64,000 bases of DNA, taken from NCBI RefSeq assembly GCF_900110865.1, contig NZ_FOFD01000001.1:992001-1056000 (forward strand). The letters run 5' to 3'. The notes under the pieces are model-generated. The model was not told where the DNA came from, ran no database searches, and worked only from the letters and a program-made list of their open reading frames with translations. Origin of the DNA: Natrinema salaciae. Its GTDB lineage: Archaea; Halobacteriota; Halobacteria; Halobacteriales; Natrialbaceae. The translations under genes were made by a program, and so were the position numbers. Below, in pieces: positions 5,962-25,820 of this stretch (position 1 is its first letter; each line of letters starts with the position of its first letter).

Positions 5962-6187
5962 AGGTGCGCCATACTGGCGATGATCCGTCTCGAGCGTGGA
6001 CCGGACCGGACGGTCGCTGTCCAATCGAACGTACCGTTCGCGTCCTGTACGTTGCTGAACGAGTGGGGGTGATCGAAGTACCGGCGATGGATGCCGACAG
6101 ACTCCACGGCTCGGCAAAGCAGTTCGTGGTACCGGCGGAAATCGATGTTCGATCCGTTGAAAGGTACTTCGAAACCCTCTGTGTAGT
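5945..6187 (-). pseudogene. Fragment of a DUF7845-type protein
   Basis: The minus strand from 6187 reads EGFEVPFNGSNIDFRRYHEL, RAVESVGIHRRYFDHPHS, SNVQDA, then with frame changes ERYVRLDSDR, SGPVHARDG and SMAHLLEN. This matches the middle of the DUF7845 family present intact at 30314-32329 and 52697-54316. At least two frameshifts are needed. It abuts the ATPase fragment in the same relative order and orientation as in the intact provirus, so an internal deletion of an older related element is the simplest explanation. The longer minus frame covering 5728-6117 is a chance product of this fusion. Confidence 0.7.
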
Positions 6188-6870: not shown

Positions 6871-9781
6871 AGTGGTCACTCACCTCCACAAACCGGCCAC
6901 CAAGACGCTCTTTCCCTGCATCACCCTCGTTAATCTCGAGTGGGACGTTCTGATACTGGTTGACGACAGGCATCACCGTTAACTTCTGACTGATCAGCGC
7001 CGCGCGGATCCGTTCCGCTCGGTCACCATCCCGAAGTTCCCTCGCACGGATCGCTGCATCTACGGATTCATCGATATCCTCCTGGGAGTGCCGACAGAAT
7101 TTTCCAAGTTCTTCGATGAAGTCAGGATTCACGTCATCGTACGTTTCGAGGCTCTCGTAGAGGTCCGTAATCCTGTCGAGGTCGACGCCGGCGAACTCTG
7201 TGGAGACCGTTTCGACGGCCTCGTCGTCGAACTCACGTTCGCTGATCTCGTCGAGTTCACGTCGGACGTCGTACATCGCGTGGGCGAAGTCCTTCAGCGA
7301 CTTTCTCGTGTCGAACCGCACTCGGCTCTCGATGTTGTTGATGTACCCGCGTCCAAGCATCGTCAGGACATCGTATGGCTCGGAGCGCTCCATCCGTTGG
7401 CGGACAGCAGGGACGTCGAGACTCCCGGACGAGATTGCAAGTAACTCGCCCATCATCCGCTCGATGTCGTCCGCGTACTCCATCGCAGATTCAATATGTT
7501 CGTACTCTTCTGGCGGTAGTGCCGCCTTCAGTTGTTCCCGAAGTTGTGAGTCCACGGAGAACTCTTCGTCACTCTCAAATCGATCATTGAGGTTTTCTGG
7601 AGTGGGATCCGTCCACGGCGAATCTAATAGGCACAGGTGGGTGTAAGACGCGAGAACGAAATCGGTGAAGTCGTACTTGGCGTGTTGCTTATAGAATACG
7701 CTGTCGTCCTCGAGGTACGTGTCGATGATTTTCTGCCGCCACTGGTGGGCGTAATCGGTCAGCTGCGTACCCAACTTTTCTAGCGTCTCCTCAAGGTCAG
7801 CGGTATTTTTCTTCTCGACTCGCCTGACACCGAACTCGACGAGCGTTCGAAGATCCGATCTCCGGAACTCGTGTCGATCGATGACGATCTGGTCTGGATC
7901 CGGGGATTCAGTACCATCTGGATAAACGAACGGGTACTTCTGGCTACTGAGGTTGTATTCTAACGGTTGTCCCTCGTAGAAACGATATTCGTCCGTCAGC
8001 TCTTCGAGCAAGACACGGAGAGCGGTTTTGATGTATCGATCAGTCTCCGGGTGATCGGTCGGACTGTCGAGCCAAGAGTCGATCGTCGCCTTTTGATCAT
8101 CGATCGTCTGCTCGAGAACGGACTTCTCTTCGACCTGGGTTTCTTTCGTTTTCGTCGTTCCTGTTTTCGTCGTAGTCGTGACTTCACCACTGGCACCGGA
8201 TTCTGCGACGAGTACCTGTTGAGATTGCTGATCGACCGTTATCTGCTCCGGAAGCTCATCCGGGTCTTCAGGAATGAGACCGAACGCATCGGCGAACCGC
8301 TTGTCGATGACGATCGCTGGATTCTCGCCGCTCCGGTCGATGGTGCCGTACCACTTCGCGAAGTCGGCGAACTCCTCTGCATCTTCGTAGACTTCGTCCG
8401 CGGCGGAGACTTTGTTCGTCAGACTTCGGAGAGCGCTCGCACTCGAGGGAACATCGACGAATCCCTCGTGGTACTCCTCGAGCACCTCGAAGACGGTCAT
8501 AATGAACTCTCGGGGTGATTGCTGGCTCTCATCCAGACCAGTATATAGTCGGTAGAGGAAGGTCTGGTTGAAGGGGAACAAGTCGCGGAACGACTCGTCA
8601 CAAAAGTCACACCGAGCACAGATCGACCCGGACGGCGCTTCTTTGAGTGTCAGATCACCGGAGTCGTTCTCTTCGTATCTGACGCTGTCGTCGAACGACT
8701 TGATATAGCCGAGATACGGCCGAACGAAGTCGACGGCGGTGTCTTCGTCCAGGAATAGCACGCTGTTTGAATTACGCTCGTTCGTTTGGAAGAACTCGAA
8801 GCGATCTTCGGCAGTCTGCGTGTGCAAGACGCCAGTCGAATCGCGAGTACCGGCAGCGATGAAGTCCCAGTTATCACTCCCCTTGTCTCGCTCCATGTAG
8901 TTCCGGAGTTTCTCGGCTTCCATCGCCGTGATCGAGAAGTCCTCGAAGATGATGACTGGCCGCGTATCCGTGAACTGGCTGCCGACGTGCTCGAGGACAT
9001 CGTCGAGCGACGCAGTGTTGTATCGGTCACGGACTTCCCGCCACAGTTCCTGGTTGAACGCATCGACCGCTTCCTCTATACCGACAGACTGCTGGAAGAT
9101 TTGTAGCTCATCTCGTTGTTTGTACTCGCCCTCGGTGATGAACTTGATCTCGCGGGCGTACTCGCCCTTTTCCACGAGTAGCTGGAGTTTTCCCCGGATG
9201 AAATCGCGGATATCGTCTTCCTGATCGCCCGTAGGACTAACCTCGTAACCGCGGCTTCGGAGATTGAGAATTGCCCCTGAAGTTGCGTTGTTTGCGACAG
9301 CCTGGGGGATGTTTTGGATGTCGTCTCGGAGCTGTTTGAACTCCGATGCACCCGGAAGTTCTTCGCCGAAGTGTTCCTCGTAAAACTGGGGAATCCGCTC
9401 GGACAGGATCGACATCAGGTCGTCGTCCTTGTCGATGTGGAGGAGTGGTCGCCCGTCGTCACGCAGGCGGTGGGAGAGATACGCACAGAGCTCGGATTTG
9501 CCCGTCCCGACCTCGCCTTCGATCACGACCGCGAAATTACCGACGCGATCGGAAGAAAACAGGCGGTAAACGCGTTCTTCGCCCCACTTCTCTGCATCAG
9601 CTGCGTTCGTTCCCCGGAAGACCTCCATTCGACGATGTGTAAAGTCGAACAACCGACGGTCCTCGGATCGAACCGCCGCGACTTTACTGAACAACCGCCG
9701 AAGGGTCTCTTCGTCGATCTGGTCGAAATGCGGGCACCGAGCATCCGCCATGGCTGGAGTCTGGAGTTCGTTCGTCGTCAT
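6860..9781 (-). CDS. Large P-loop ATPase of the defence operon (973 aa), DpdH/Pbe-like by context
   Basis: Walker A GEVGTGKS lies at residues 89-96, after a short N-terminal region, and a Walker B-like PVIIFEDFS at about residue 275, followed by a sensor-like IAAGTRDST. A Cys cluster (CARCDFCDES, about 385-395) may bind zinc. The middle has a Thr/Lys-rich linker (TTTTKTGTTKTKE) and the C-terminal half is long, helical and acidic with no known domain. ATG 9779-9781 overlaps the upstream stop (9778-9780) as ATGA. Such ATPases accompany helicases in modification-dependent restriction modules (DpdH in bacterial Dpd, Pbe proteins of archaeal phosphorothioation systems), where they are thought to power sensing or assembly on DNA. 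I cannot decide between these families from sequence alone. It is encoded between a winged-helix-like protein and a coiled-coil protein, all in one operon. Confidence 0.85.
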   Translation of the reverse strand: MTTNELQTPAMADARCPHFDQIDEETLRRLFSKVAAVRSEDRRLFDFTHRRMEVFRGTNAADAEKWGEERVYRLFSSDRVGNFAVVIEGEVGTGKSELCAYLSHRLRDDGRPLLHIDKDDDLMSILSERIPQFYEEHFGEELPGASEFKQLRDDIQNIPQAVANNATSGAILNLRSRGYEVSPTGDQEDDIRDFIRGKLQLLVEKGEYAREIKFITEGEYKQRDELQIFQQSVGIEEAVDAFNQELWREVRDRYNTASLDDVLEHVGSQFTDTRPVIIFEDFSITAMEAEKLRNYMERDKGSDNWDFIAAGTRDSTGVLHTQTAEDRFEFFQTNERNSNSVLFLDEDTAVDFVRPYLGYIKSFDDSVRYEENDSGDLTLKEAPSGSICARCDFCDESFRDLFPFNQTFLYRLYTGLDESQQSPREFIMTVFEVLEEYHEGFVDVPSSASALRSLTNKVSAADEVYEDAEEFADFAKWYGTIDRSGENPAIVIDKRFADAFGLIPEDPDELPEQITVDQQSQQVLVAESGASGEVTTTTKTGTTKTKETQVEEKSVLEQTIDDQKATIDSWLDSPTDHPETDRYIKTALRVLLEELTDEYRFYEGQPLEYNLSSQKYPFVYPDGTESPDPDQIVIDRHEFRRSDLRTLVEFGVRRVEKKNTADLEETLEKLGTQLTDYAHQWRQKIIDTYLEDDSVFYKQHAKYDFTDFVLASYTHLCLLDSPWTDPTPENLNDRFESDEEFSVDSQLREQLKAALPPEEYEHIESAMEYADDIERMMGELLAISSGSLDVPAVRQRMERSEPYDVLTMLGRGYINNIESRVRFDTRKSLKDFAHAMYDVRRELDEISEREFDDEAVETVSTEFAGVDLDRITDLYESLETYDDVNPDFIEELGKFCRHSQEDIDESVDAAIRARELRDGDRAERIRAALISQKLTVMPVVNQYQNVPLEINEGDAGKERLGGRFVEVSDHYVN

Positions 9782-10614
9782 CCGATCACCTCGAGTGTGT
9801 TCGCTTCTCGGTCGATGTCGCTGTGACTCGGTATGCGATCGAGACTGATTGCACCTGCATCACCGTGTTCAACGATTCGTATCGCGCCGTTTCGAACGAG
9901 CGTGTACAGCACACGAGCGAACGGTGCAGGGACGGTTCCATCGGATGTCAACTCGATCAACAGGAGATTCTGGTTGAGCCAATCGAGATAGTCCTCAATC
10001 GAAATCCGACCATCATCACCGATATCTTCAACGGCAAATCGGATCGAGTGCTCGATCATGTCTAAATCGGGATAGACCGTGTGTGACCGCCCGCTCATTT
10101 TGTAGATGAGTCCGAGTGAGTCTACGAGCCGCGTCCAGTTGATGAACTTTGGCTCGTTGAGGACGATCGGTCCCTGACTCGAGCGGGGCCGATACCCACA
10201 GTCACTCTGCTGCCAGTCGTTAATCTCGTTGAAGAGAACCTCGTCGTTACTCTCGAAGTACTGGATGTCGTGTTGGAGTAGATACTGGTAGTTCAGAAGG
10301 ACGACTGACTGTTTGCCCCAGTCACCGGGTTCCGCTCGTGTCGCCAGCTGGTTGAGCGCGGTCATGCGGAAGTCGAGTTCGCGATCGGCGGTCTCCCAGG
10401 TGTACTCGATCGTATAGTAGTCCGGCTCTTCGCGACCGATCATGCCAAGCTGCTGAAGCCCATTGAGGCCTTGCTTAAGCAGATTGGCTGGGAGGTCAGT
10501 ATCGTCGCGTAGCTCCTCAGACGTCGTATGACCCCTGTGGATCGATTCGAACACGGTCCGTAGTGGACCAGGTGTCTGTACCGTGTTGAGGATGTATCCT
10601 TGATTTTCACTCAT
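9778..10614 (-). CDS. Winged-helix-like protein of the defence operon (278 aa)
   Basis: The N-terminal 75 residues look like a winged helix-turn-helix (TVFESIHRGHTTSEELRDD, ANLLKQGLNGLQQLGMIGRE), followed by a globular region without known motifs. ATG 10614 (MSENQGYILN) is preferred; an in-frame start at 10668 would add 18 residues and overlap the upstream gene. The stop overlaps the ATPase start as ATGA, so the two products are probably made in fixed ratio. By size and position it could be the counterpart of bacterial DpdG, a protein of about 300 residues next to DpdH; this is inference from context. A role in DNA binding or recruitment of the ATPase is plausible. Confidence 0.75.
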   Translation of the reverse strand: MSENQGYILNTVQTPGPLRTVFESIHRGHTTSEELRDDTDLPANLLKQGLNGLQQLGMIGREEPDYYTIEYTWETADRELDFRMTALNQLATRAEPGDWGKQSVVLLNYQYLLQHDIQYFESNDEVLFNEINDWQQSDCGYRPRSSQGPIVLNEPKFINWTRLVDSLGLIYKMSGRSHTVYPDLDMIEHSIRFAVEDIGDDGRISIEDYLDWLNQNLLLIELTSDGTVPAPFARVLYTLVRNGAIRIVEHGDAGAISLDRIPSHSDIDREANTLEVIG

Positions 10615-10630
10615 CGTATCATCAGTTTCG

Positions 10631-11539
10631 TTAGTTGATGTCCGAGAGCCAACCGTGATAACGTGCATCGATCTGGCTCTCTTCGGGTGCTAGTCGTTGT
10701 CGGGCGGTTCGTGCATCGCGAAGTTTTGGACTCCGTCTGGCATAGGAGGGGTCGAACGTACTCCCATCGTCAGAGACCGTGCGGTTCAACGTTTTGGCAA
10801 CGTCGATCGCGGTTTTTCGATCCCACTCGATTCGTCGACGAAGCCAGTTGCCCAGGGCGGGAACTTGATCATCCGAATCTAACGGAACGCTCCCGTATTC
10901 ATTTGGACGGGCAAAAACGTCACAGAACACCCAGTATAGCGGAAGATATGGTGCCTCGGGAAGACGATCAAATAACTCGGTCGTATTCGAGAGGTCTTCG
11001 CCGGTCACGAGTGAGTAGAGTGACGCGTTATCTTGGACGAACAGGTTTTGCGTGTCAGTTAGGGGCAATTCCCAACCCTCCTGATTATAATACTCGCTGA
11101 ACGCCTCGTAGATGCGGTCCGCAGAGCCAACGCGCGTTGCAAACTGCTCCTGGGAAAGAGGACGCTGCCCACCATCAGGCGTGAAACGTTCGTTTTCGGT
11201 GATTACAACGAGCGTACCCTCTCCTGTCGAGAACTCTGTGACCAACGGTTGGATCGAATACTGAGTCTGTGACTCGTAGTACTCGTTTGTCAGGGCACAG
11301 AGATTAGATCCCTCTTCGAGATCAATACCCCCGAGCACGTGATAGTCGTATCCGGGGAACTGGTACTGTTGGCCCCCGTCGAGCTGTCGCCATGACGTTG
11401 GGAACGTACACTGACCGATCCCGAGATACGAAATCGCTGGCAACGTTCGCAACAGCCACCATCGGGAGTCGGGTACCTCATCGTAGATAACCGCAACACC
11501 CGTTCGTGTCAACCGGTGTTGGATCATCTCGAGACTCAT
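10631..11539 (-). CDS. Hypothetical protein of the defence operon (302 aa)
   Basis: No domain recognised. The N-terminal half is rich in aromatic residues and beta-prone (SRWWLLRTLPAISYLGIGQ, YQFPGYDYHVLGGIDL, EGTLVVITENE), the C-terminal half is helical, and an Arg-rich tail (YARRSPKLRDARTARQRL) could contact nucleic acid. It begins at ATG 11537-11539, 28 bases after the DUF1998 helicase stop, and ends 16 bases before the winged-helix-like gene. It is certainly part of the operon. It may correspond to another accessory Dpd- or Pbe-type protein, but I have no direct sequence signature. Confidence 0.7.
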   Translation of the reverse strand: MSLEMIQHRLTRTGVAVIYDEVPDSRWWLLRTLPAISYLGIGQCTFPTSWRQLDGGQQYQFPGYDYHVLGGIDLEEGSNLCALTNEYYESQTQYSIQPLVTEFSTGEGTLVVITENERFTPDGGQRPLSQEQFATRVGSADRIYEAFSEYYNQEGWELPLTDTQNLFVQDNASLYSLVTGEDLSNTTELFDRLPEAPYLPLYWVFCDVFARPNEYGSVPLDSDDQVPALGNWLRRRIEWDRKTAIDVAKTLNRTVSDDGSTFDPSYARRSPKLRDARTARQRLAPEESQIDARYHGWLSDIN

Positions 11540-11567
11540 CTAGATCACCCTCTTTTGAACGCTCACG

Positions 11568-14500
11568 TTAGTCTCCCCCGATTCCAACGATTCCAGCAAG
11601 CGTCCGTCGGTCCAAGAGGTCGTTCTCGAGATAGTACGCAGGCGTTCGTGAGAGTAACAGACACTCATCACAGTAGCTGTGACATCGCTCACAGCTCGCG
11701 ATGTCTATCACGTGTTCTTCGAGCGTGTCTATCTCTTCGAACACCTGCCAGGTGATCCCGTTGCCTCCCTGACGACCGTCGACGATGAAGATGTCTAACG
11801 TTTCGTCAGTTGTACTCACCTTTACGTTGAAATCGGATCGGTCAGAGTTAGCGACGATTGCGACCGCCTTCTCGAGCGATTGCTCGAGACTGACCAACGC
11901 CTGGGGCCAGGACTTCTCGTCGTGGCCCACACCATCGTATCGGTCCTGAACGCTTGCGAGGTCAACACGGAAGTGAAGCCCCTGTGTATGGTACTGCTGG
12001 CCGACGGGACGATACGTCTCTTCCTCGACGTCCTCTAACTGATCAAGCCACGAGTCTCCGGCCGAATCCGACTCGTTCTCATCACGCTCGACGAGTGCCT
12101 CTGATCGCAGGGTCTTCTTTTTCGGGCTACTCGAGTGACGGCGCTCGAACGCGTAGATGAAATTGGTCAATTCGAACTGGCCGTAGCTGACGGTCGCTGG
12201 CAGGCCAAATAGCGTGATTTCTTCCGACTCGTGGAATTCCTCCGTCGCACGGCGGACGTGCGTCGTCATGAGCCCACGGGTGCTGTAACCGCGTTGACCA
12301 CCGACGGCCGTCTTGCACTCGACACTGCTTACGCCGTGGATATCCGTTATCTCGAGTGGCTCATCACAGTGGGGACAGAACTCCAAATCCGTCTCGTAAC
12401 TCTCGAAGGGGCGGTCGCAATCTTCGTTCGTACACACGGCGAGTTCCACGATTGGTGAGGAAGTCGCTCGAACGTCATCGACGATGTAGTCGGTCCCGTG
12501 AAGCGTGAGCACCGCCCCCAAGTCGTTCTCCTCACCGGGGTACATGTCATACAGCCGCCCCGACGATTCGAAGCTGATGTGCTCTCTGCGTCCACTGAAT
12601 TTTACTGGGAACGTCTGACCGAAGTTGCGGTAGTTCGCTAAGTATCCCAGCCGTGAGAGCCACTGGTCAAGTCGGCTGTTCGTCTCCGTGAGGTTCTTGT
12701 TCGCGTCAGCCCCGCTCGACATCGACGTAAGCCGTGAGAACGTCTGCTCCGTTCGCGTCGACAGCGAGAGCGGCCCCTCATCGAAGAAGACCTCCTCGTA
12801 AACCTCGATACCACGTGGGCCGAACACCGATTCGACGTGTTCTCGGAGCGGTTCGTCCATTTCCTCGCGGATGAAGTTTCCAAGGATCGAGAGGTGCTTC
12901 TCCACTGCAGACACGTAGCTATTCAAGTTCTCTCGCTGGGGCTCGGAGAGCGTGAAGACGCGCTCGAAGACGTTCGATTCGTGTGGGTTCCGGGCCAAGT
13001 AGGCGAACACCTCCGTCACGACGTGGCCGGCGAGTAGTTCATCGAAGTCGTACGGGTCCGGCACTCGGATCGGTTCGAACCCTGCGAGATATCGCTCGAG
13101 GTTTCCGTAGTAGTGTCCGTCGACTGGGTGAGTCCCTCGAGCGACGGTCATTACGAGCGACGAACTACCGCGGGTACGGCCCGTTCGTCCCGACCGCTGC
13201 ACGTAGTTCGTCAACGTCGGCGGGATCCCCACCTGTGCTACCGTGTCGAGAGTCCCGATGTCGACTCCCAGTTCCATCGTCGGCGTTGCACTGACGACGT
13301 TGACGTCCGGGTCGTCTTTTCGGAACCCTTCCTCAATCGCCCCACGGAGCGTGTGTGGGATATCTCCTTTGTGTATTCCGACGGTTATGAATTCAGGCTC
13401 CTCGCCGTCGTGCAACGGTCGCGTGACGTCGTGGGCCCAGTGGTCGATTGCATACGGCCAGCCGGAATCTACTGTTGCGTAACCGGGGTCGGCCCTGAGC
13501 GTATCACCTTCGCGGGTGAACCGCTGATATGTCTCGAGTGTGTCACCGCAGTTCTGGCACTCGTGGACACCGTCTCCGTCGTCAGGGACTGGATAGGACG
13601 AGTAACAGGAAGAACAGAACGCAGCACGCGGGAGTAGGACAATTGTCGACTCGTCGCGCCGAGGCGTTCTGATGAAGACCCCGCTATCCGCTGGCTCGTC
13701 CTGGAGAGATGCCTCGTTGACTTTCTCGCGTGCGTCCTCGAGGTACGCGTGTACCTCGTCGCGCGCAGACTCATCTATTCCAGCCGTCTGCACGGCATTT
13801 TGCACTTCTTCCCAGGATTGGAGCGAAACGATCCCTTCTTCGAGGAACGTTTCGAGGATGGTGTCGAGAACGTCGTCGATCCGTTGTCTCGAGATTTCCA
13901 TCCGACCGTCGAGACGGTCGACCATCTTCTCTCGCGTCAGGCCATCGAAAGCGACCTTGTTGTACCGGAAGGTATCGCTTTGGCCCAGCACAAACATCGT
14001 ATACAGTTCGTGGGCAACGACGAGCGCTTCCGGATCGTCGAAGGACGTCACCGGTTCTGCGGTTATCATCGCGCTCTCGATGAGATTCTCACACCGGCTC
14101 AGCATCGCGTGTGCTTCGATGTCGTCGAGGAGTGTCCGCAGGAAGTTGTAGGCTGTCCCGTCTTCGTCGATTTCGTTCTGAATGAGTGGCTGCCAGTACT
14201 CCTCGCGTAGTCGATCCGAAACGGCGCGGAACAGCTCGTAATTGTCCATCTCGCCGCCAGCCTTGATGAGTTCCTGGACGTAGAGCGTCTCTGCCATCAG
14301 CCCGTACTCGGTTTCGATGATCCGGTCACCGACGCTTTCAGCAGCACTTCGAGAGTCGGAGAAGACAAGCGTCTTCTGAGACGGAGTCACCCGACAGACC
14401 TCGGTCAGCATGTACGACAATAGCGAGGATGTTGGAACACCGGCGTCAGTGGTGTTAATCCAGCCCCCACAGCCGGGACACTCATCGACGGGGCCATCTG

Positions 14501-16295
14501 CACTGATCGGTGCAAACACCGTTTCATCGCCGCTGTCGTCCCACTCGAGATACGGCTCGTGACACCGTCGACAGAACTGCATCTCCGGAAGCGCACTGTT
14601 ACACTCTGGACACTTGCTGTCACGGGTCACGAGATCGCACTCTTGACACCAGTATACCTTGTACGGCGGCTTCAAGAAGACGTGATACTTCTCAGTGATG
14701 ATTCCTGCGAGCTGACCGAACGCCATTACGGTCTCGAGGATACCCTCAGGGTCGTCGAGTCCGAGTTCAGTCGCTTCGGCGATTAAGTCGTCGTAAGCTT
14801 TGAACTCAACCTCACCTGTTGTCCCTGAGTCGAACCACGAGGTGAACGCAGGAACCTCGGGGATGGCACTGATGACGAACTCGTACCAGCCGCTGAAGAA
14901 GCCGCTATCCTCGATGACTGCTTCGACGACGGTGTTTCGGCCCTCTGTCGAAGCGAGAATCTCGAGTTCGTCTTTATCTTCGTGATCGAGTAGCTGTTTG
15001 TCGAGGGCGTCGACGATCGGCTCGAGCATCCAGTCCTCGGCTCGGGGTCCGAGCTGAATGTCATCGGTTGCGATGAGCCCGATAGAACGGAGCGTCTCGA
15101 GTGCACCCTCGAGGTCAAACTGCGCGATCTGTGGTTCTGCGGGTTCATCTACCTGTGCCAGCGCCAGTGTGTGAACGATTTCCTCGAGTGTGGCTGGTTC
15201 GAACCGGTCGAAGTTTGGTGTATCCTGAACGGGGAACTCACGGGCAGTAAAGGAGATGTCGTTGATGTCTCCTTCTGGAGTTCCCGTTAGGTCACTTGCC
15301 AGCGAACGCGGATCCTCGACCGTCGCCGACACCATGGTAACCTGTGGGTCTCGGTCAGCGTAGAACGATTTGAGTCGCCGGGAGAGAAGCGAGACTGCCG
15401 ATCCCTGGATCCCACTCCAGACGTGTGCCTCGTCGAAGACGATATGTTTGACCGGCTGATCGTTCGGCTCGGTGCCGAGGATTGCACGGGTCTCCGGATT
15501 GTTCGAGACGAACATGTAATCGAGTGCCTCCGGGACCGTCAGCAGAATATCGACGCCGCGACGGATCCCGTCACGAGTGACCCGCACCCACGAGTATGAG
15601 TGGTCGTCAGTTCCGACAGACGTCTCATCGAAGACGCGCAACTTCTCCGACTCGTCACGTGGGTCGACGAGCCCGCGAACGTAGGATCCTGCTTCGATTT
15701 CGTGGTCTCGAGTACCCACACGCGTTGGCGTGTCGGAGTCCCAGATACCGATTGTGATCCGGTCTTCAGGGTCGCGATACCGGTTGATATGATCGAGATA
15801 CGTCAGAAACCGGTTGAGTTGGTCGACACCGAGGGTTTTCATCGGGTAGACAACTATTGATTTTAAACCCTCTTCGTCCGTTGACAGGCAGTCGTTGAGA
15901 ATGGGCAGAAAGAACGACTCCGTCTTTCCAGAGGCCGTTGGAACCGCCAAGATGGTATCCTGGTTGGTCGTCTCGATAGCCTCAATCGTTTCAGCCTGAT
16001 GCTGGTAGAGCGATCCCGCGGTGTCCCCACCGAACAGCTCCTCTACGATTGCGTTGTTGATTGCCTCGTCATACCCCAAATCGGCGAGAAAATCCATCGC
16101 AGGTTGATCGTGGAACTGGGGTGCGTCGACGAACTCAACGAAGGGACCCTTTTGCTCAATCAGATCTTCTGTGACGAACGACGTAGCATTGTCAACGCCA
16201 TCTACGTCGTTGAGCTTGGTCATCCCACGGTTCCACCAAGTAATCTCTGCGGCACGGTCTTTCGCGCTCTCGAGGGTGTCGTGTGGTGTGTGCAT
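11568..16295 (-). CDS. DEAH-box helicase with C-terminal DUF1998 (1575 aa)
   Basis: Helicase motifs run in order: Walker A in VPTASGKTESFF (about residue 120), a DEAH box in IVFDEAHVW (about 286), SAT (about 322), a Cys-rich insert (CQECDLVTRDSKCPECNS then CRRCHEPY and CPGCGGW, about 545-600), TPTMELGVDIG and QRSGRTGR (about 1035). The C-terminus carries the DUF1998/MZB signature: a CTNEDC...CPHC pair, DGRQGGNGITWQVFEE and CERCHSYCDECLL. This is the MrfA/YprA-type group found as the motor in DISARM, Druantia, BREX-5 and Dpd-related systems. At 1575 residues it is about twice the length of housekeeping MrfA and in the range of defence helicases. It lies 83 bases after the nuclease-helicase and 28 bases before the 302-aa gene. 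It probably translocates on, and remodels, invading DNA. Confidence 0.9.
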   Translation of the reverse strand: MHTPHDTLESAKDRAAEITWWNRGMTKLNDVDGVDNATSFVTEDLIEQKGPFVEFVDAPQFHDQPAMDFLADLGYDEAINNAIVEELFGGDTAGSLYQHQAETIEAIETTNQDTILAVPTASGKTESFFLPILNDCLSTDEEGLKSIVVYPMKTLGVDQLNRFLTYLDHINRYRDPEDRITIGIWDSDTPTRVGTRDHEIEAGSYVRGLVDPRDESEKLRVFDETSVGTDDHSYSWVRVTRDGIRRGVDILLTVPEALDYMFVSNNPETRAILGTEPNDQPVKHIVFDEAHVWSGIQGSAVSLLSRRLKSFYADRDPQVTMVSATVEDPRSLASDLTGTPEGDINDISFTAREFPVQDTPNFDRFEPATLEEIVHTLALAQVDEPAEPQIAQFDLEGALETLRSIGLIATDDIQLGPRAEDWMLEPIVDALDKQLLDHEDKDELEILASTEGRNTVVEAVIEDSGFFSGWYEFVISAIPEVPAFTSWFDSGTTGEVEFKAYDDLIAEATELGLDDPEGILETVMAFGQLAGIITEKYHVFLKPPYKVYWCQECDLVTRDSKCPECNSALPEMQFCRRCHEPYLEWDDSGDETVFAPISADGPVDECPGCGGWINTTDAGVPTSSLLSYMLTEVCRVTPSQKTLVFSDSRSAAESVGDRIIETEYGLMAETLYVQELIKAGGEMDNYELFRAVSDRLREEYWQPLIQNEIDEDGTAYNFLRTLLDDIEAHAMLSRCENLIESAMITAEPVTSFDDPEALVVAHELYTMFVLGQSDTFRYNKVAFDGLTREKMVDRLDGRMEISRQRIDDVLDTILETFLEEGIVSLQSWEEVQNAVQTAGIDESARDEVHAYLEDAREKVNEASLQDEPADSGVFIRTPRRDESTIVLLPRAAFCSSCYSSYPVPDDGDGVHECQNCGDTLETYQRFTREGDTLRADPGYATVDSGWPYAIDHWAHDVTRPLHDGEEPEFITVGIHKGDIPHTLRGAIEEGFRKDDPDVNVVSATPTMELGVDIGTLDTVAQVGIPPTLTNYVQRSGRTGRTRGSSSLVMTVARGTHPVDGHYYGNLERYLAGFEPIRVPDPYDFDELLAGHVVTEVFAYLARNPHESNVFERVFTLSEPQRENLNSYVSAVEKHLSILGNFIREEMDEPLREHVESVFGPRGIEVYEEVFFDEGPLSLSTRTEQTFSRLTSMSSGADANKNLTETNSRLDQWLSRLGYLANYRNFGQTFPVKFSGRREHISFESSGRLYDMYPGEENDLGAVLTLHGTDYIVDDVRATSSPIVELAVCTNEDCDRPFESYETDLEFCPHCDEPLEITDIHGVSSVECKTAVGGQRGYSTRGLMTTHVRRATEEFHESEEITLFGLPATVSYGQFELTNFIYAFERRHSSSPKKKTLRSEALVERDENESDSAGDSWLDQLEDVEEETYRPVGQQYHTQGLHFRVDLASVQDRYDGVGHDEKSWPQALVSLEQSLEKAVAIVANSDRSDFNVKVSTTDETLDIFIVDGRQGGNGITWQVFEEIDTLEEHVIDIASCERCHSYCDECLLLSRTPAYYLENDLLDRRTLAGIVGIGGD

Positions 16296-16378
16296 CGTGT
16301 GAAATGTCGTCTATGATCAGTTGCTTCGCCCTTGTGTGTCAGTTCCTATAAGATGTTCCGCTTGGATATCACTCGACG

Positions 16379-19300
16379 TCACTCATCGCGATACCCATTG
16401 TATATTTCCACAGAGACGGATCGTCCCGGTGTCAGCTCCGAAGCGTCTTGATGAGTGACCGTCAGGTTCGCATCTGCATCGCGTTCACCGACCCCAAGTG
16501 CCCGATACAGCTGCTTCCACGCCTTCTGGTTTTCGTACTCCTCGACGTCGGGGCTCACTGCGCGGAACAGGGATTTCGAGGCGACGATGAACAGTTTGCG
16601 CTTCATCCGTGAGGCACCGACGTTGAAGCGATTTGCATCGAGCAAGAACTCCGAAACCGTATTGACGTACCCCTGGTTGCCTGCTGTCATCGACAGCACC
16701 ATCACATCTTTTTCGTCGCCTTGGAATCGCTCGACCGTGTCTACAGGCGCGTTTAGTTCGTCACTCAGGCGTCGGCGCATCAGCCGGAACGGGACGACGA
16801 CGCCTGCGGTCACTTCCTCGCTGGACGGCTCTTCATCAGCTGACACCGTCGGCAATGAGTCGAGAAGCTGCTCGGCGAGATACGCCTCGAGTGGACTGTC
16901 CTTCGTGAATTCGTCGTCGTCGTGTAGCAACAGCGTTACTCTGGCCTCAGGGTCGAGCGCAGCGTGCATCCACTCGGGCATCGACGAGTCGCGGACATCC
17001 GGCATCAGTTCGGCCGACGCTTCAGAGGTGAGTTCGATCCCGTCTTTGTGGTAGAACAGATCAGTTTCCATCTCCGCGACCGACTGCGGCAGTCGGTAAG
17101 TGGTTGTCAGCCGATCCATCGGCAGCACGTCGTCTGGGTCAGACCAGTCGGGGGCTTCTCGCTCAAGGTGAGCCAGCGTGTCTTCGGCAGTTCCGCGCAA
17201 GAATCGGAGGAAATCGAGCGCCGACACTGCAGGGGTGTGCGCTTCGATCGTTTCGCGATCCTCAGATACCCAGTCGTGCTGTTGGATCGGCTGCATCTGC
17301 CGGTGATCGCCAACGAGCAGCAGCTGCCGACTCTCGCGAAGAAACGCACCGAGGAGGAACAGCAGTGGAAGGTCGAGCATACTCGCCTCGTCAATCAACG
17401 CGAAGTCAAAGCGGCGAGCGCCGCCAGACTCGAATAAGTCTTCAGCAGTTTCTGCCTCGTCGTCAATCAGGTCCGCGACCGCGTTCATCGCGTTGCGGAG
17501 CGTGACCGGCGTCGCGAATACGAGGACTTGTTCACCGTCTTCCGACTTCTCCTCACCCATCGTGTTCTCGTAGAGTTCACGCCACTGCTCACGATCGTCG
17601 TAGTACTGCAGATCGATCACGTTCTCGGGGAGCGAGCGATCGCTTTCCGAAGAGCGGATTCGAACCAGCGTCAGATCATCGCAAACGCCTCGGTCGGCGA
17701 GATTGCTCACCGCGGTTCCGACCGCATCCGCGATTTCGTCCACGGCGTTGTTCGAGTGCGCTGAAACCACGCCTGCGAAGTCGCGTCCCTCGCGAGCGAA
17801 GGCCGAAACGCGTGAGAGAATCGCCGGCGTCGACGCGTAAGTCGTCTTTCCCGTTCCCGGCGGCCCTTGGAGCCCTGCAACCGAGTGATCGAGCCGCGTC
17901 ACAAACGATCGCTGGTCGTCGTTAGTCGAGAACGGCATCACCTCGTCGAAATCCTTGAGGAACGAATCAACCGCGTCCGGTGAGCAAAACGGCGTCTCGT
18001 ACTGGAGCGCAGTTTCAGTGTGCTCCTCGTAGAGGCGAAGAAGTCTGTTGTGGATGTCGTTCGACCTAGCCTGACGAAGCGCCTCTCGAGCACGGAACGC
18101 CGCGTAGTCGTCAATCGCCTCGTCGACGACGAACTTCGCTCCCTCTGTGATGAGGGTCTTCTCGTCCTCCTTGGGATCGGTCGTCCATCCGACGTGGTTG
18201 GTCATGTTCGGCTTCCGTTTCCGGTGGCCGTCCCATGGGATCGAGATGGAGACGAACCCACTTCGCGGATCTGCTGTTTGAACGACACCAAGAACCTGAT
18301 TCGCGATCTGCTGGGGTTTCTCCACGTCTTCAGTAAGTGTCCCATCGCTCCCCGTCGTCAAGGGGGTGAGGACGACCCACGTCCCGCGTTCGATCGACAG
18401 CGGCGTATCGGTTCGAACCCCATCACCGTTATCGCCGCCGAGATCGCGGAGCATCTCTCCACTAACGACCTTTTGAGGTTCCTCACCGTTTCCGCCAAGC
18501 GTCGGCTGCGTCGTTACTTTGAACGGAACCGCCTGGCCTGAACTGACCCGCTGAGACAGCGGCGTCCGGTATCGGTTCTCCAGCCCACGTCGAGCTGTCC
18601 CATGCTCGAGTTGCTGATACTCGACACACGTCGTCTGGAGCGCCGAGGCACCCAGGGAATTCTCAGTGATGTCCGCCACGTTCACTGGTTGTTTCGGCGT
18701 CTTCGCGTCTTTGTCACGGATGCAGCGTTCGATGTACTCGTAGGCGTCACAGACTGCCCGAACACCGTCTTCAATATCGGCGAGCGTGATCTGGGGCGAG
18801 GTTTCGTCGGTGTAATGGCGATACTGGACGATTCGCTCACGCATCTCGGGCGAGTCCGCCCACTCGGGACTGAGTACGTCGAATTCTTCGCAGGCATAGA
18901 GGTACTCGAGTGGAAGGACCTCAGCGTGTCGACCGACTACCGGGTAGTAGCCGTCAACAGATTCACCACGAGCGAGGTACTGGTCGTCGGGAACCCGAAG
19001 TCCGTCGTTGAAGTCGAGAAGGATTCGGTTTCCGCACTCGGTGTATGGGACAGCCGTTTCGAAGAAGTCGGAACCGAAGATGGTCTTGAGAGACTCCTCG
19101 CTCGAGTCGCGATGGGTGTCCCACGCGAATTCACGATCCGAGCTGTAAAACTGGGCAACCGTCTGAACGAGCCCCAACCCGGGGTACCGGAAGGCGTGGC
19201 GCTGTCGGAACTCCGAACGGAGGATGCTGACCGCTTCTTGGTCGATATCCGCACGATAGCCGAGCAACGTCCGAATCGCCTGTGACGTCTCCAAGTCCTC

Positions 19301-20896
19301 GTGACGTTTCACGGCATCCATCAGTGCGTCCCGCTGTTGTTCACTATAGGGATAGAGATGGACGTACCCCTCTCCGGGATTTTCGCCCTCGTCCGTGAGG
19401 TCGGGAGCGACTTCATGGATGGCATCACCGAGACGGTCGAAGTACGACTCGAGGAGTCGCCGTTCTTCCGCCTCACGCTCGGAGGGCGTCTGCGGCAGTG
19501 ATTGTGGACGAGCGATGATGAACACGCCGTCACCATGTTCCTCTTCATAGCGGGTGCAAGTCACCTTCGCTGCGAGCAGCGTGACTCGGTTACGGACGTG
19601 ATCGTACTGAACGTAGGGATATACTCGAACGAGTGATCCCTTTGGGTACCCGTGCTTCGTGTCTTCCCACGGCGTCTTCCAGTCCTTGTCGTAGGGATTG
19701 TCATCCGGGAGGTTTCGTCCAGTCCCAAGTAACATCTCGGACCACGGTCCACCGTCCCACTCGTCGTCGAATTGCGGGTCGAGTTCGCGGCGGAACCGAT
19801 GAGCAATCTGGACCAGGTCGAGTAGGTTCGAAATCTCCGTCTCACGTTGAATCCGCGCGACTAATTCCGGATCGGTGGCCGTCGGTGTTTCGTAGTTCGT
19901 AGCGCTAAGTTCCCAATCACCGTCAGGAAGCTCGTACAGGTCAGTGAGATCGCCGAGGGTGTCGATCCCGAATTCACGAAGGGACTCTTGAACGCCTTCG
20001 GTCAACCCGAGCAACGCCAAGTCGTGGTTCGTCGCCGCATACGCGAGACATTTCGCTTGTTTTGGACACCCATCACACCGTCCATCGAGGCGGAACGGCG
20101 GATCGTTCGAAGAGCTTGCCATACTGCCGTCGTAGAGTAACACGTCGTCGAGCGTCCCGCCGTCTTCAAGCAGTAGTCGGACATCGTTCTCTCGAGACGC
20201 AAGTTCGAACGTCGGGAGCCGACCAAGCATGATCGACCCTGTCTGCGACACCACGTTTTCGAGGCGGGTTCCCGACTCACTGGTGACGATGGTCGCCGAG
20301 ATGTCGACGGGGTGTCCGGCGAGTAATTCCCGAAGCGCCAACGTATAGACTGCTGCCTGGATCTGGTGGTGCGTCTTTGCCGTTTCCGAAGATTTTATTT
20401 CGAGAACCCGAACCTCGACAACTCGTTCACCACCATCGTCCCTCGGAACGGCAAGGACGATATCCGCGTCGCCACAAATCGGCCACGCCTCAACCGTACA
20501 CTCGAGGGTCGGCTGGAAGAACACAATCGGACGGTCACGGCCACCGCTGGCGAGCTCATCAACGAGTTCGACCAGTCGCTGTTGATCCGACGTTCCGGAC
20601 CACGATTCATCGAACGACGTATCTATGGTGTCTTCTTCAATCTGGTCAGGGCCGACACTATATACGTCGGCCTCGAGCAACGCCTTGAGTTGACCGTGTT
20701 CGAACTCTGTACCCGCCTTCGCGTACAGCGGGCTGAGGGGAACGTCCTCGATAGTGCCAAGCGTGTCATCGATGTACTGCCTGAAGAGATACATCGAACA
20801 CTGGTCTAGTTTGTAAAAATGTGCGATTGAGCTCGGTGCGATTACTTCACGGTCGATTGTCGATGCGTCTCCGTCGGTCGTCGTGGTATCACTCAT
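16379..20896 (-). CDS. Cas4/Dna2-like nuclease fused to SF1 helicase (1505 aa)
   Basis: The N-terminal domain looks like a RecB/Cas4-type nuclease: C33 (DQCSMYLF), an acidic position in GDADIVLAV, the core EIKSSE near residue 165 followed by QIQAAVYTLALREL (motif IV Q and Y), and a cluster CDGCPKQAKC near 272-281. One Cys upstream plus three downstream is the Fe-S pattern of Cas4/AddB/Dna2 nucleases. The C-terminal third is an SF1 helicase: Walker A GPPGTGKTT (about 1010), LIDEAS (about 1165), GDHRQMQPI, TTYRLPQSV, RFQGDEKDVMVLS and RFNVGASRMKRKLFIV. The ATG at 20896 (MSDTTTT) overlaps the stop of the upstream gene, so it is chosen over the ATG at 20962. It is the likely DNA-degrading effector of the operon. 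A housekeeping role is unlikely given the operon context. Confidence 0.88.
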   Translation of the reverse strand: MSDTTTTDGDASTIDREVIAPSSIAHFYKLDQCSMYLFRQYIDDTLGTIEDVPLSPLYAKAGTEFEHGQLKALLEADVYSVGPDQIEEDTIDTSFDESWSGTSDQQRLVELVDELASGGRDRPIVFFQPTLECTVEAWPICGDADIVLAVPRDDGGERVVEVRVLEIKSSETAKTHHQIQAAVYTLALRELLAGHPVDISATIVTSESGTRLENVVSQTGSIMLGRLPTFELASRENDVRLLLEDGGTLDDVLLYDGSMASSSNDPPFRLDGRCDGCPKQAKCLAYAATNHDLALLGLTEGVQESLREFGIDTLGDLTDLYELPDGDWELSATNYETPTATDPELVARIQRETEISNLLDLVQIAHRFRRELDPQFDDEWDGGPWSEMLLGTGRNLPDDNPYDKDWKTPWEDTKHGYPKGSLVRVYPYVQYDHVRNRVTLLAAKVTCTRYEEEHGDGVFIIARPQSLPQTPSEREAEERRLLESYFDRLGDAIHEVAPDLTDEGENPGEGYVHLYPYSEQQRDALMDAVKRHEDLETSQAIRTLLGYRADIDQEAVSILRSEFRQRHAFRYPGLGLVQTVAQFYSSDREFAWDTHRDSSEESLKTIFGSDFFETAVPYTECGNRILLDFNDGLRVPDDQYLARGESVDGYYPVVGRHAEVLPLEYLYACEEFDVLSPEWADSPEMRERIVQYRHYTDETSPQITLADIEDGVRAVCDAYEYIERCIRDKDAKTPKQPVNVADITENSLGASALQTTCVEYQQLEHGTARRGLENRYRTPLSQRVSSGQAVPFKVTTQPTLGGNGEEPQKVVSGEMLRDLGGDNGDGVRTDTPLSIERGTWVVLTPLTTGSDGTLTEDVEKPQQIANQVLGVVQTADPRSGFVSISIPWDGHRKRKPNMTNHVGWTTDPKEDEKTLITEGAKFVVDEAIDDYAAFRAREALRQARSNDIHNRLLRLYEEHTETALQYETPFCSPDAVDSFLKDFDEVMPFSTNDDQRSFVTRLDHSVAGLQGPPGTGKTTYASTPAILSRVSAFAREGRDFAGVVSAHSNNAVDEIADAVGTAVSNLADRGVCDDLTLVRIRSSESDRSLPENVIDLQYYDDREQWRELYENTMGEEKSEDGEQVLVFATPVTLRNAMNAVADLIDDEAETAEDLFESGGARRFDFALIDEASMLDLPLLFLLGAFLRESRQLLLVGDHRQMQPIQQHDWVSEDRETIEAHTPAVSALDFLRFLRGTAEDTLAHLEREAPDWSDPDDVLPMDRLTTTYRLPQSVAEMETDLFYHKDGIELTSEASAELMPDVRDSSMPEWMHAALDPEARVTLLLHDDDEFTKDSPLEAYLAEQLLDSLPTVSADEEPSSEEVTAGVVVPFRLMRRRLSDELNAPVDTVERFQGDEKDVMVLSMTAGNQGYVNTVSEFLLDANRFNVGASRMKRKLFIVASKSLFRAVSPDVEEYENQKAWKQLYRALGVGERDADANLTVTHQDASELTPGRSVSVEIYNGYRDE

Positions 20897-21308
20897 TGGA
20901 GGGAACACCTCGATTTTCGTCGGTCGCGCCAGCCTCGAAACGTTCGCCATGGGAGTCATCACACCAGTGGCAATCGCGGTCGTCGGAACTCACTTCGTAG
21001 AGAAGTCCACACTCCGGGCAGCTGTGCAGATGGTCGTCGTTGACCTCCTGCTCTCCGCGATTGAGGACGGTGATGATGACGCCGTTGCGAGCGCCCATGA
21101 TCGTTCCAGTCGGCGAGTGGAGACGCGCCCGGCCGAAAGAATAGTGCGGAAGCCCAACTGGAACACCTTCATGCCATGCCTCGAGTACGGTCATCTCGCC
21201 GCACACTCCCCTGCTGCGTTGTAACCACCGTAGTTGCGCGTGGTCCGAGGGACGGGGTAGCGTCCTACGTGTCGCTGTCGCCACCGACGAGCAAGTGCTC
21301 GTACTCAC
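20889..21308 (-). CDS. Small zinc-ribbon protein, first gene of the defence operon (139 aa)
   Basis: The central part (DHAQLRWLQRS, VLEAWHEGVPVG, MGARNGVIITVLNRGE) looks like a small alpha/beta fold that I have seen in short haloarchaeal proteins of unknown role. The C-terminus has a zinc ribbon CPECG...CHWC. The GTG start at 21306-21308 is supported by a GGAGGTG ribosome-binding sequence about 10 bases upstream. The stop overlaps the nuclease-helicase start, which makes it the leader gene of the operon. A toxin-like or regulatory role is possible but unproven. Confidence 0.65.
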   Translation of the reverse strand: MSTSTCSSVATATRRTLPRPSDHAQLRWLQRSRGVCGEMTVLEAWHEGVPVGLPHYSFGRARLHSPTGTIMGARNGVIITVLNRGEQEVNDDHLHSCPECGLLYEVSSDDRDCHWCDDSHGERFEAGATDENRGVPSNE

Positions 21309-23304: not shown

Positions 23305-25302
23305 TCAGATGATGGAGTCCAAGTAATCGAGTAACTCTTGAATGTTAGTATTACGAAAATGTTCGGTAAGCTGGAGTGACTTTGGATTTCGAGGAAAGAC
23401 GATTTCATCGCTCGCCCCAACATCAGACTCTTCGAGGGCTGTTTCGATAACATCACGATATTCTGCACTAGCGACGTATGCTACGATCTCGTCATAGTGA
23501 TCACCGTAGGTTTCCAGATACGTCTGTAGACGTTCTGTGACCAAATTTATTTGCTCAGTGTCTTCACCGGTAAGCATATACTCATAGCCGAGAACCGGAT
23601 CCTCCCGCTCTTTCTCTTCAGGAACGGGACCGTACATCCCCGAAAGAGTCACTTTGTGAATCAGATCGCGTTTGTCCTCGAGTTTTGTCTCGAGAACCGA
23701 GTGGGTTCGGGATTCCGAGTAGGGCTTTTTTTGGCTACACGGAACGAGCAGCAGCACCCGCTTATCAGCAGGTGGCTCATACCGCTGGGTGAGGATATTG
23801 AAACTGCTCGGATTGTACTTCAACGAAATACTCCGGGTTTCGGTGCTTTCATCGACGCCACCGCCCCATTTCGAAAGTTTCGTTTGATCACTCGTCAGCT
23901 CTGGCCCTGCAACTAGATCATATGCTTCCTTCTCTTCGAGATCACGACGGAGTTTCTTATCCCGAAGCTGTGCCTGCTTCAGTCCCTTCTTGATATCCGG
24001 GTTGTCCCGGGCAAAGTCGATGACGTACTCGAGAAGTGTACCTTGTTGGATCTGATCACGCACTCGCTGAAGTTCGGAGTTATAGACCTCGAAGTTATGT
24101 CTCGCAAGCGCTGCATAGTAGTCGCTCTTGATTGGGTCACCGTTGTCCTTACGCTCTTGACGCTCATCATAGCTGAGATCCATATTAAGCTCCTCGACGA
24201 GTGTGTTGTAGTCAACTCCACTCTCTGGACCACATAGCGTACAGTGATCGAGCATACATGGGAAGTCACCGTCATTCAGATACGGCTCGAGATCGTTGAT
24301 ATGAACTGTCTCCCACGTATCTGGGAGAGTATACTTTGCATAGGTTGCAGTCTGAACGTGGGTTGAGCAGTCGAAGGTGTCGACACCGAGTAAGGATAGG
24401 AGTGACACTTGTTTCCCGCCAACACCAAAAACGTGAATTCCGATTTCGTCTGCTCGAGAGGACGGTATCGCATCGGTTGCTCCCTGTACGATATCAATGA
24501 GAACGTCGATGCTACTTCGAAGTGGAACGAGTGAACCGATGGCGAACCCTTCAAAGGATTGCTCTACATTTGCCTCTTCAATTCGTTCAAGGAACGTACC
24601 GACGTACCAGTTTACTGTTTCATAATCGTGTCCATGGAGCGCTACGTAAACACCCGGTTCGTCACCGTCTCGCTTTTGTTGCTTCAGCCGCTCAGCTGCA
24701 GCCTCATTTTTCGGGAATCCCTCACTAAGCGTATCAGGTTCCTCGATAATCTTGAGACACTCAACTGCACTATCGATACTACGCTCCATCCGTTCGACCT
24801 TCTCCTCTTCGTTCAGCTTCGGAGGAATAGGGTAGTCGAGTGTTGCGATGATATCAGCTCCAAAATCAATCTGAAGGCCAAGAATACTCTTTGGGGTAGT
24901 GTATAGCCCCCACTCATTTTTGGCCCCACCCTCGACTGGTGCTTGGCCAAACGTATTCGAATTCATCAGTTTGAATCCGCCCGAATCGATGAAGACAGGG
25001 GCGTCGAGATCGGCAAAACGCTCGTGGAATGTTTCAGATCGCCAAAAGTCGTTTAGATTTTTCGGAGAAACACCATAGTCCGTGAAGCTCATTGCCTGGA
25101 ACATAATCCCGTCTAAATGCGCCCCATCAATGAGGTTATCTCGTATGCGACGCCAGATTCCACCGGACTTCTCTGTGGTACCTCCGATGAAATTTATGAC
25201 AGGAAAGAGAGCTGGTGTAGAAACGGGTCCATGTGGAACGCAGAGCTCACCGAGGCGACCATATCCATCTTCACCTTTCTCCTCAACTCGGAACTCCGCC
25301 AT
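23305..25302 (-). CDS. DpdA-like tRNA-guanine transglycosylase fused to an ArcS-type domain (665 aa)
   Basis: The N-terminal part (to about residue 425) is a full transglycosylase fold with catalytic residues in place: FIDSGGF (D106, base recognition), the DIIATLDYPIP strand, VDTFDCSTH (D311, position of the covalent nucleophile), and Cys residues 349, 354 and 357 as the zinc site. The family-typical HNFEVYNSELQRVRD and GTLLEYV follow. The C-terminal part (about 512-665) carries PC at 521-522, KPY at 526-528, S531 and H534, the PC-x3-KPY-x2-S-x2-H signature reported for archaeosine synthase. Archaeal TgtA inserts preQ0 at G15 of tRNA, and ArcS then adds to its nitrile. Housekeeping ArcS also keeps a transglycosylase-like part but not, as known, an active one. 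Here both appear catalytic, with no clear PUA domain. Proximity to the helicase/nuclease operon suggests DNA as the substrate (DpdA function); a second tRNA enzyme is the alternative. Confidence 0.85.
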   Translation of the reverse strand: MAEFRVEEKGEDGYGRLGELCVPHGPVSTPALFPVINFIGGTTEKSGGIWRRIRDNLIDGAHLDGIMFQAMSFTDYGVSPKNLNDFWRSETFHERFADLDAPVFIDSGGFKLMNSNTFGQAPVEGGAKNEWGLYTTPKSILGLQIDFGADIIATLDYPIPPKLNEEEKVERMERSIDSAVECLKIIEEPDTLSEGFPKNEAAAERLKQQKRDGDEPGVYVALHGHDYETVNWYVGTFLERIEEANVEQSFEGFAIGSLVPLRSSIDVLIDIVQGATDAIPSSRADEIGIHVFGVGGKQVSLLSLLGVDTFDCSTHVQTATYAKYTLPDTWETVHINDLEPYLNDGDFPCMLDHCTLCGPESGVDYNTLVEELNMDLSYDERQERKDNGDPIKSDYYAALARHNFEVYNSELQRVRDQIQQGTLLEYVIDFARDNPDIKKGLKQAQLRDKKLRRDLEEKEAYDLVAGPELTSDQTKLSKWGGGVDESTETRSISLKYNPSSFNILTQRYEPPADKRVLLLVPCSQKKPYSESRTHSVLETKLEDKRDLIHKVTLSGMYGPVPEEKEREDPVLGYEYMLTGEDTEQINLVTERLQTYLETYGDHYDEIVAYVASAEYRDVIETALEESDVGASDEIVFPRNPKSLQLTEHFRNTNIQELLDYLDSII

Positions 25303-25508: not shown

Positions 25509-25820
25509 ATGAAAGTTCAAATTGAAATTACATTACAAAGTGGAGAAACCACTCATATTAGCGGTAGCAAGCGGGACGACTGGCAGGGCCTGACAAACCC
25601 ATGTCCAGAATGCGGGAGCTGTGAATTCAATCATTTTAGGGTAACTGGAGGGCACTACGGAAAGCAAGGCAGCTCTGTAATTATGCGGACAGACTACTGG
25701 AGCGTAGAACAGACCCTATTCACCCGGTGCAAGTCCTGTAATGAAATACTTTTCAAGCATCCAGCTTTCGACCTGCTCTTCGATCCAGATGGTGAGAATA
25801 ACGCTGTGATCGAAATGTGA
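25509..25820 (+). CDS. Small zinc-ribbon protein (103 aa)
   Basis: Two Cys pairs, CPECGSCEF and CKSCNE, frame a beta-rich region containing a YWSVEQTLFTRC strand, so a treble-clef or ribbon zinc fold is likely. ATG 25509 has a GGAGG sequence about 8 bases upstream. It is divergent from the transglycosylase-ArcS gene across a 206-base intergenic region that must hold both promoters. Function unknown. It may be linked to the modification gene only by position. Confidence 0.65.
   Translation: MKVQIEITLQSGETTHISGSKRDDWQGLTNPCPECGSCEFNHFRVTGGHYGKQGSSVIMRTDYWSVEQTLFTRCKSCNEILFKHPAFDLLFDPDGENNAVIEM

Follow-up and report, generated by a model that had tools for sequence, protein, structure and literature searches.

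What is the function of an additional transglycosylase (TGT) that carries an ArcS-type domain (DUF5591) and is encoded beside restriction-like genes in a haloarchaeon? This question is raised by a stretch of 64,000 nucleotides (G000:C1:992001-1056000, in the following the window) within the 4.86-Mb genome of Natrinema salaciae, which encodes the protein here called TGT5591. We suggest, with a probability of roughly 0.78, that a mobile, Dpd-like cassette of haloarchaea modifies DNA with 7-deazaguanine and that TGT5591 is its second enzyme for base exchange. Its most informative partner genes are located outside the window. The genes in question are:

Window 23305-25302, minus strand: TGT5591, a TGT-DUF5591 protein of 665 amino acids, complete open reading frame with ATG start; intact transglycosylase domain (about residues 1-450), linker, DUF5591 (about 504-640), C2 and PUA domains absent
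C1:980017-983332, left of the window: the partner trio, consisting of a DUF6884 protein (170 amino acids), a second TGT (412 amino acids, here TGT412) and a GHKL ATPase (521 amino acids)

Both halves of TGT5591 are recognised by Pfam far over the curated cut-offs, namely TGT (PF01702) in residues 15-328 with an E-value of 9.5e-26 and DUF5591 (PF17884) in residues 504-628 with 6.1e-23. An earlier note on this DNA had described a complete transglycosylase core followed by the motif PC-x3-KPY-x2-S-x2-H at residues 521-534, and these readings proved to be exact: D106 is found within FIDSGGF and D311 within TFDCS, the zinc ligands are C349, C354, C357 and H402, and the second motif comprises P521, C522, K526, P527, Y528, S531 and H534. 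In a family alignment of 16 homologues with identities to the window protein as low as 50%, D106, D311, C349, C354, C357 and H402 are invariant in the TGT half and P521, C522, S523, K526, P527, Y528, S531 and T533 in the DUF5591 half; H534 is almost invariant, one sequence having glutamine. The subgroup of the window protein shows three added residues between the first and the second zinc cysteine and retains the ligands. Judged by these residues, both active sites of TGT5591 are intact. That the gene is a pseudogene or the motifs a chance match was rejected, since the key residues are invariant down to 50% identity. The GC content around the gene (0.47-0.49 at 22-26 kb, versus 0.65-0.70 at the right end of the window) is consistent with recent transfer.

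TGT5591 is neither the housekeeping TgtA nor the housekeeping ArcS of its host. Both are encoded separately in this genome (TgtA at C7:209898, ArcS at C7:215140), and one TgtA together with one ArcS is kept in 18 of the 18 TGT5591 carriers tested. In the NCBIfam equivalog models TGT5591 reaches 98.6 bits for TgtA (TIGR00432, cut-off 350) and 118.8 bits for ArcS (NF040592, cut-off 440). With ArcS it has in common the order of a TGT-like domain followed by DUF5591 with the PC-x3-KPY-x2-S-x2-H motif, whereas ArcS differs by a degenerate TGT pocket and by terminal TGT_C2 and PUA domains, which Pfam detects in the ArcS of the same genome and not in TGT5591. The catalytic and zinc residues of the TGT half are common to TGT5591 and TgtA. 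Among the key positions of the family (D95, S96, D130, Q169, G196, V198 and D249 in TgtA numbering), all but Q169 are retained in 20 of 20 TGT5591 homologues, whereas ArcS has lost S96, D130 (in 16 of 16), G196 and V198 and retains the nucleophile D249 and the zinc site. Judged by sequence, the loss of these active-site residues, named in the earlier note (for a structural alignment) as refuting its idea, is seen in none of the 20 proteins. At Q169, the preQ0-contact position, glutamine is present in 16 of 16 TgtA sequences and is replaced by histidine in all 20 TGT5591 proteins as well as in 21 of 22 TGT412 proteins.

The phylogeny with TgtA, ArcS and DpdA that the earlier note proposed was reconstructed from 81 TGT domains, in which the enzyme of phage 9g is the sole DpdA and sits on a very long branch. 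TGT5591 forms one clade (support 100) apart from TgtA and ArcS, and its side of the tree (support 97) comprises TGT412, the phage 9g DpdA, a cyanobacterial plasmid TGT and a haloarchaeal plasmid TGT of 344 amino acids. A joint clade of TGT5591 and TgtA is rejected by the approximately unbiased (AU) test (p 0.0025). In a DUF5591 tree with few columns TGT5591, ArcS and free-standing AF0587-like proteins represent three separate groups. Such free-standing DUF5591 proteins of about 200-270 amino acids (PDB 2q07) occur in other Halobacteriota (L150-L158), in genomes that also have a full ArcS. The assignment as housekeeping TgtA was rejected from the AU test, the bit score and the separate TgtA gene, that as housekeeping ArcS from the intact pocket, the missing terminal domains, the bit score and the separate ArcS gene.

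The statement of the earlier note that it knew of no described system with this fusion beside a restriction-like operon needs qualification, as ArcS has the same domain order and a TGT has been reported in some loci of the BREX-related capture (BRC) system (PMC12839542). Because the order is the usual one of ArcS the fusion itself is less surprising; what stands out is that the TGT half is intact. In the open-access literature (subscription papers, preprints and supplements being outside the scope) we found neither a paper that names DUF5591 nor a description of such a haloarchaeal cassette.

The context of TGT5591 is dominated by the trio, whose TGT412 has kept all catalytic and zinc residues. 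Among 149 relatives TGT5591 is found in 14 and TGT412 in 18 genomes, and all 14 belong to these 18 (hypergeometric p 2e-16). When all loci collected are considered, the trio accompanies TGT5591 in 20 of 20 genomes; it occurs without TGT5591 in G002, G006, G010 and G045, while the converse was never seen. A phylum-wide sample of 393 genomes contains nine carriers, all within the same order. In most relatives the trio is only 18-132 bp away from TGT5591, its genes overlap each other by a few bases in most loci, and in L035, L036 and L038 TGT5591, DUF6884, TGT412 and GHKL genes are co-directional. Protein distances of TGT5591 and TGT412 in 18 genomes are correlated with 0.86 (partial correlation 0.86, permutation p < 1/5000), whereas the correlation with TgtA of the same genomes is 0.09 for TGT5591 and 0.03 for TGT412. 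This means that the two genes travel together and horizontally. The notion of the earlier note that one polypeptide could do the whole job alone is not supported, since none of the genomes collected has TGT5591 without another intact TGT and the nitrile-type protein that belongs to it.

That nitrile-type protein is the DUF6884 member of the trio (DUF6884 9e-15, YaaA/DUF328 3e-6, PADLOC DpdC 2.5e-7), which also gives a weak match to DUF5591 (0.0025, under the cut-off). In profile-profile comparison DUF5591 matches DUF6884 with a probability of 82% (TGT5591) and 94% (ArcS), with CSxxK and LS[A/G]xxG in register. The Pfam authors ascribe to DUF6884 a fold like that of YaaA and the motifs CxxxK and LSAxxG (PMC11701544), and bacterial DpdC carries this domain (PMC11888242). 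By its predicted domains the cassette consists of two like units of a TGT and a CSxxK domain, one split (TGT412 and DUF6884) and one fused (TGT5591).

Some further arrangements around these genes deserve to be mentioned. In the four genomes that have the trio without TGT5591 (L072-L075 from G002, G010, G006 and G045) a 310-aa orphan, a second DUF6884 protein, the DUF6884, TGT412 and GHKL genes and an 829-aa GmrSD/SspE-like protein are found; the orphan gave no match in Pfam, NCBIfam or PADLOC. Directly left of the trio of the window's genome lies a DUF262-like protein (L010:1439-3124), by eye similar to the GmrSD N-domain. TGT5591 itself is adjoined by a divergent zinc-ribbon-like protein of 103 amino acids (window 25509-25820), homologues of which occur near the trio in L073-L075. 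On plasmids of Haloferax alexandrinus (L149:3018-7026) and Haloarcula sinaiiensis (L086:3945-9026) the intact 344-aa TGT stands beside a protein of 964 and 969 amino acids, respectively, that contains a segment resembling TGT and, in its C-terminal part, DUF6884 (CSGSK, recognised by Pfam in L149). Genes for QueD and for a BREX-type ATPase lie close by, in L086 also one for QueE. This arrangement looks like an independent fusion of a TGT with a CSxxK domain.

Genes for the supply of preQ0 are found within a few kb of several cassettes, namely QueC, QueE and QueD in L036 and L038, QueC, FolE and QueE in L037, and QueD, QueE, FolE and QueC in L080. In G003 and G069 a further queC is present elsewhere, which makes the island copy a dedicated one, and in G114 and G495 the island queC is the sole copy. 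In the genome of the window queC is located away from the cassette (C2:669201). In Thermococcus, ArcS can use preQ0 nucleosides and nucleotides as acceptors of lysine, tRNA not being required (PMC11298593), and this makes DUF5591 chemistry on DNA plausible.

The cassette resembles the Dpd system (dpdA-K; Salmonella Montevideo, Kineococcus) in its combination of a TGT-family enzyme, a DUF6884 (DpdC-type, YaaA-like) protein encoded together with TGT412 and an ATPase, in nearby preQ0 synthesis genes and, by profile matches under the cut-offs, in a DpdJ-like helicase with a DpdK-like PLD protein in the same island. It differs in possessing two intact TGTs instead of one, with DUF5591 fused to one of them. 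With the DpdA model NF041059 (cut-off 200 bits) TGT412 scores 20 bits and TGT5591 gives no match. A survey of dpd islands lists eight bacterial phyla and archaea are unmentioned (PMC11888242). What we describe is probably a Dpd-like system of DNA modification and restriction in haloarchaea; its second transglycosylase bears an additional ArcS-type domain and was always seen together with the first. Viral DpdA enzymes (phage 9g, HVTV-1) insert 7-deazaguanine into DNA and are accompanied by virus-borne preQ0 synthesis genes (PMC6884629). The phage 9g DpdA differs from TGT5591 in being short (317 amino acids), very divergent (branch 4.1) and alone; the tree does not include the HVTV-1 candidates (genes 69 and 83), as they lacked usable similarity. 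Among 50,697 phage records no close homologue of TGT5591 was found, only remote TGT matches, and neither TGT profile had a match in IMG/VR; TGT5591 as a virus gene was rejected.

TGT5591 lies upstream of a large helicase and of a five-gene operon that starts with hel1575, and to its left two pairs of a DpdJ-like helicase and a DpdK-like PLD protein are found, one of which enters the window:

Window 16379-20962, minus strand: superfamily 1 helicase of 1527 amino acids, N-terminal region weakly Cas4-nuclease-like (PADLOC MkoA 4e-32, Cas4 0.003)
Window 11568-16295, minus strand: hel1575, DEAD/DEAH helicase of 1575 amino acids with a C-terminal MrfA-type zinc domain (DruE 5e-45, SngC 1e-38, DpdJ 2.5e-27)
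Window 10631-11539, minus strand: p302, 302 amino acids, no family, conserved operon member
Window 9778-10668, minus strand: p296, 296 amino acids, no family, same operon as hel1575
Window 6860-9781, minus strand: aaa973, STAND/AAA-type ATPase of 973 amino acids, same operon as hel1575
Window 6187-6879, minus strand: p230, 230 amino acids, last gene of the hel1575 operon
Window 1-1292, minus strand: DpdJ-like helicase (about 1362 amino acids), 5' part only; whole gene C1:989204-993292, continuing left of the window
C1:988780-989232: DpdK-like PLD protein, partner of the preceding helicase

The operon recurs in L006, L007, L029, L030, L031 and L085 and partially in L037, L080 and L083, and homologues of the 1527-aa helicase adjoin TGT5591 or the trio in L029, L034, L040 and L085. 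The helicase/PLD pairs match DpdJ with 7e-52 and DpdK with 2e-15, but in NCBIfam they remain under the cut-offs, with 149 of 800 bits for DpdJ and 57 of 100 bits for DpdK; complete 1362-aa homologues of the helicase at the window edge are found in L078 and L079. On a plasmid of Haladaptatus sp. YSMS36 almost the whole set is contiguous in 30 kb (L085:17139-46954), including two TGT5591 genes of different subclades in this one island (L085:17139-21838).

In other genomes the neighbours are different. The cassette adjoins DrmA, DrmB and DrmC homologues in L082 (genome G426) and PglZ and HerA genes in L034, and a GmrSD-type protein adjoins the trio alone in L073, with a gene of the same size in L072, L074 and L075. 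A modification unit with changing restriction partners is the pattern expected of a self-mark. In G426 no convincing methyltransferase motif was recognised by motif scan in the approximately 15-20 kb read on each side. The DrmABC genes lie by the TGT cassette (L082:11920-18033) and phosphodiesterase, HerA and AAA (BRC-like) genes are located further left (L181); this is possibly a DISARM system with a base-exchange mark. DrmA, DrmB and DrmC with a methyltransferase, as typical of DISARM, are not present in the window itself. A recurrent cluster (e.g., L038:10797-16327) with a zinc-ribbon protein, a RAMP-like protein, two orphans (one weakly Cmr3-like), an exonuclease and an HNH-like protein adjoins the cassette in L008, L031, L036, L038, L039 and L083 and resembles a RAMP module or one derived from CRISPR type III.

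A role of the cassette in DNA modification beside restriction genes, already considered in the earlier note, is well supported by this context, namely by the second TGT, the DpdC-type DUF6884 protein, the preQ0 genes and the linkage to restriction modules. From the same context we infer the DNA substrate, the physical complex, the product chemistry and restriction, and the following mechanism may be proposed. FolE, QueD, QueE and QueC, encoded by host or island, would supply preQ0, which TGT412 and the TGT half of TGT5591 would exchange for chosen guanines in DNA. The two transglycosylases probably form a complex and the GHKL ATPase could assist them. The nitrile would then be processed on the DNA by the CSxxK-type (YaaA-like) domains, i.e. 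DUF6884 as partner of TGT412 and the fused DUF5591, with an amide, an amidine or a lysine adduct as product. The mark would label self DNA, and the adjoining exchangeable restriction modules, here the helicase/nuclease genes at 6187-20962 of the window and the DpdJ/DpdK-like pairs to the left, would attack unmarked DNA. Tentatively, we can go further and imagine that an obligate pair of active DNA transglycosylases, each served by its own nitrile-processing domain, marks the two strands of an asymmetric site or two different sites, possibly with two kinds of 7-deazaguanine. One of these would be an amidine or a lysine adduct, so that chemistry of the archaeosine pathway would take place on the chromosomal DNA of an archaeon, and several restriction modules of unrelated kinds (DpdJK, BRC and a DISARM-like DrmABC that lacks the methyltransferase) would have adopted this portable self-mark.

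Several points weigh against a Dpd-like DNA modification cassette. In the genome of the window the trio is 34 kb away from TGT5591, in G093 even 180 kb. A homologue of DpdB (ParB/DndB-like ATPase) was not recognised in the cassette, which has a GHKL ATPase instead. The profile matches behind the assignment of the restriction modules are weak to moderate and lie under curated equivalog cut-offs. The AU test does not reject a joint clade of TGT5591 and ArcS (p 0.138), so that the TGT half of TGT5591 and the decayed one of ArcS may have a common origin. AlphaFold2 models of TGT5591 (from five sequences, mean pLDDT 46.8) and of the DUF6884 protein (from two sequences, 43.7) were unusably poor, so both pockets of TGT5591 were judged from sequence alone. 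Finally, the modified base in DNA is deduced from gene context.

Three other explanations have been considered. TGT enzymes are dimers, and in a heteromer of the two transglycosylases base exchange could be performed by TGT412, with TGT5591 mainly supplying the DUF5591 or a DNA-binding function. The one-way obligate co-occurrence with the trio described above speaks for this possibility, whereas the invariance of all catalytic, pocket and zinc residues of TGT5591 argues for its own turnover, and we regard it as rather unlikely. Much less can be said for an accessory RNA-modifying enzyme (of tRNA or other RNA) of mobile elements, which could for instance alter tRNA during virus infection while its location in defence islands is coincidental. 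Elsewhere TGT and DUF5591 are familiar as parts of tRNA enzymes, and the substrate-binding face of TGT5591 has no usable model, but the protein is devoid of the terminal domains of ArcS, each carrier tested has its full set of housekeeping tRNA enzymes, and the gene occurs in linkage with DNA restriction genes of the DpdJ/DpdK, Drm and PglZ types and with the gene of a DpdC-type protein; an RNA enzyme therefore appears improbable. A BRC component with the other island genes as unrelated neighbours is very improbable, since, although some PglZ/DUF6079/HerA loci, archaeal loci among them, were reported to encode a TGT (PMC12839542) and PglZ- or HerA-type genes are beside or near the cassette in L034, L035, L036 and L181, most TGT5591 loci including the window have the trio and no PglZ or HerA in the stretches read (HerA/FtsK, PglZ and a DUF6079-like ATPase were not seen near TGT5591 of the window), the published description of BRC names neither DUF5591 nor DUF6884, and no DpdC homologue was found in BRC whereas the trio includes a DUF6884 protein.

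So far, 7-deazaguanine marks in DNA have been ascribed to bacteria and viruses, and archaea use the same building block in tRNA; if two intact transglycosylases of a mobile cassette do act on DNA in archaea, this chemistry would extend to archaeal chromosomes. Such a cassette would also raise an evolutionary question, namely whether an enzyme with two functions, similar to TGT5591, was the ancestor of ArcS, in which the transglycosylase half has decayed. As one and the same modification cassette apparently exchanges its restriction partners, a testable prediction can be made on how modules for self-marking and for attack recombine.
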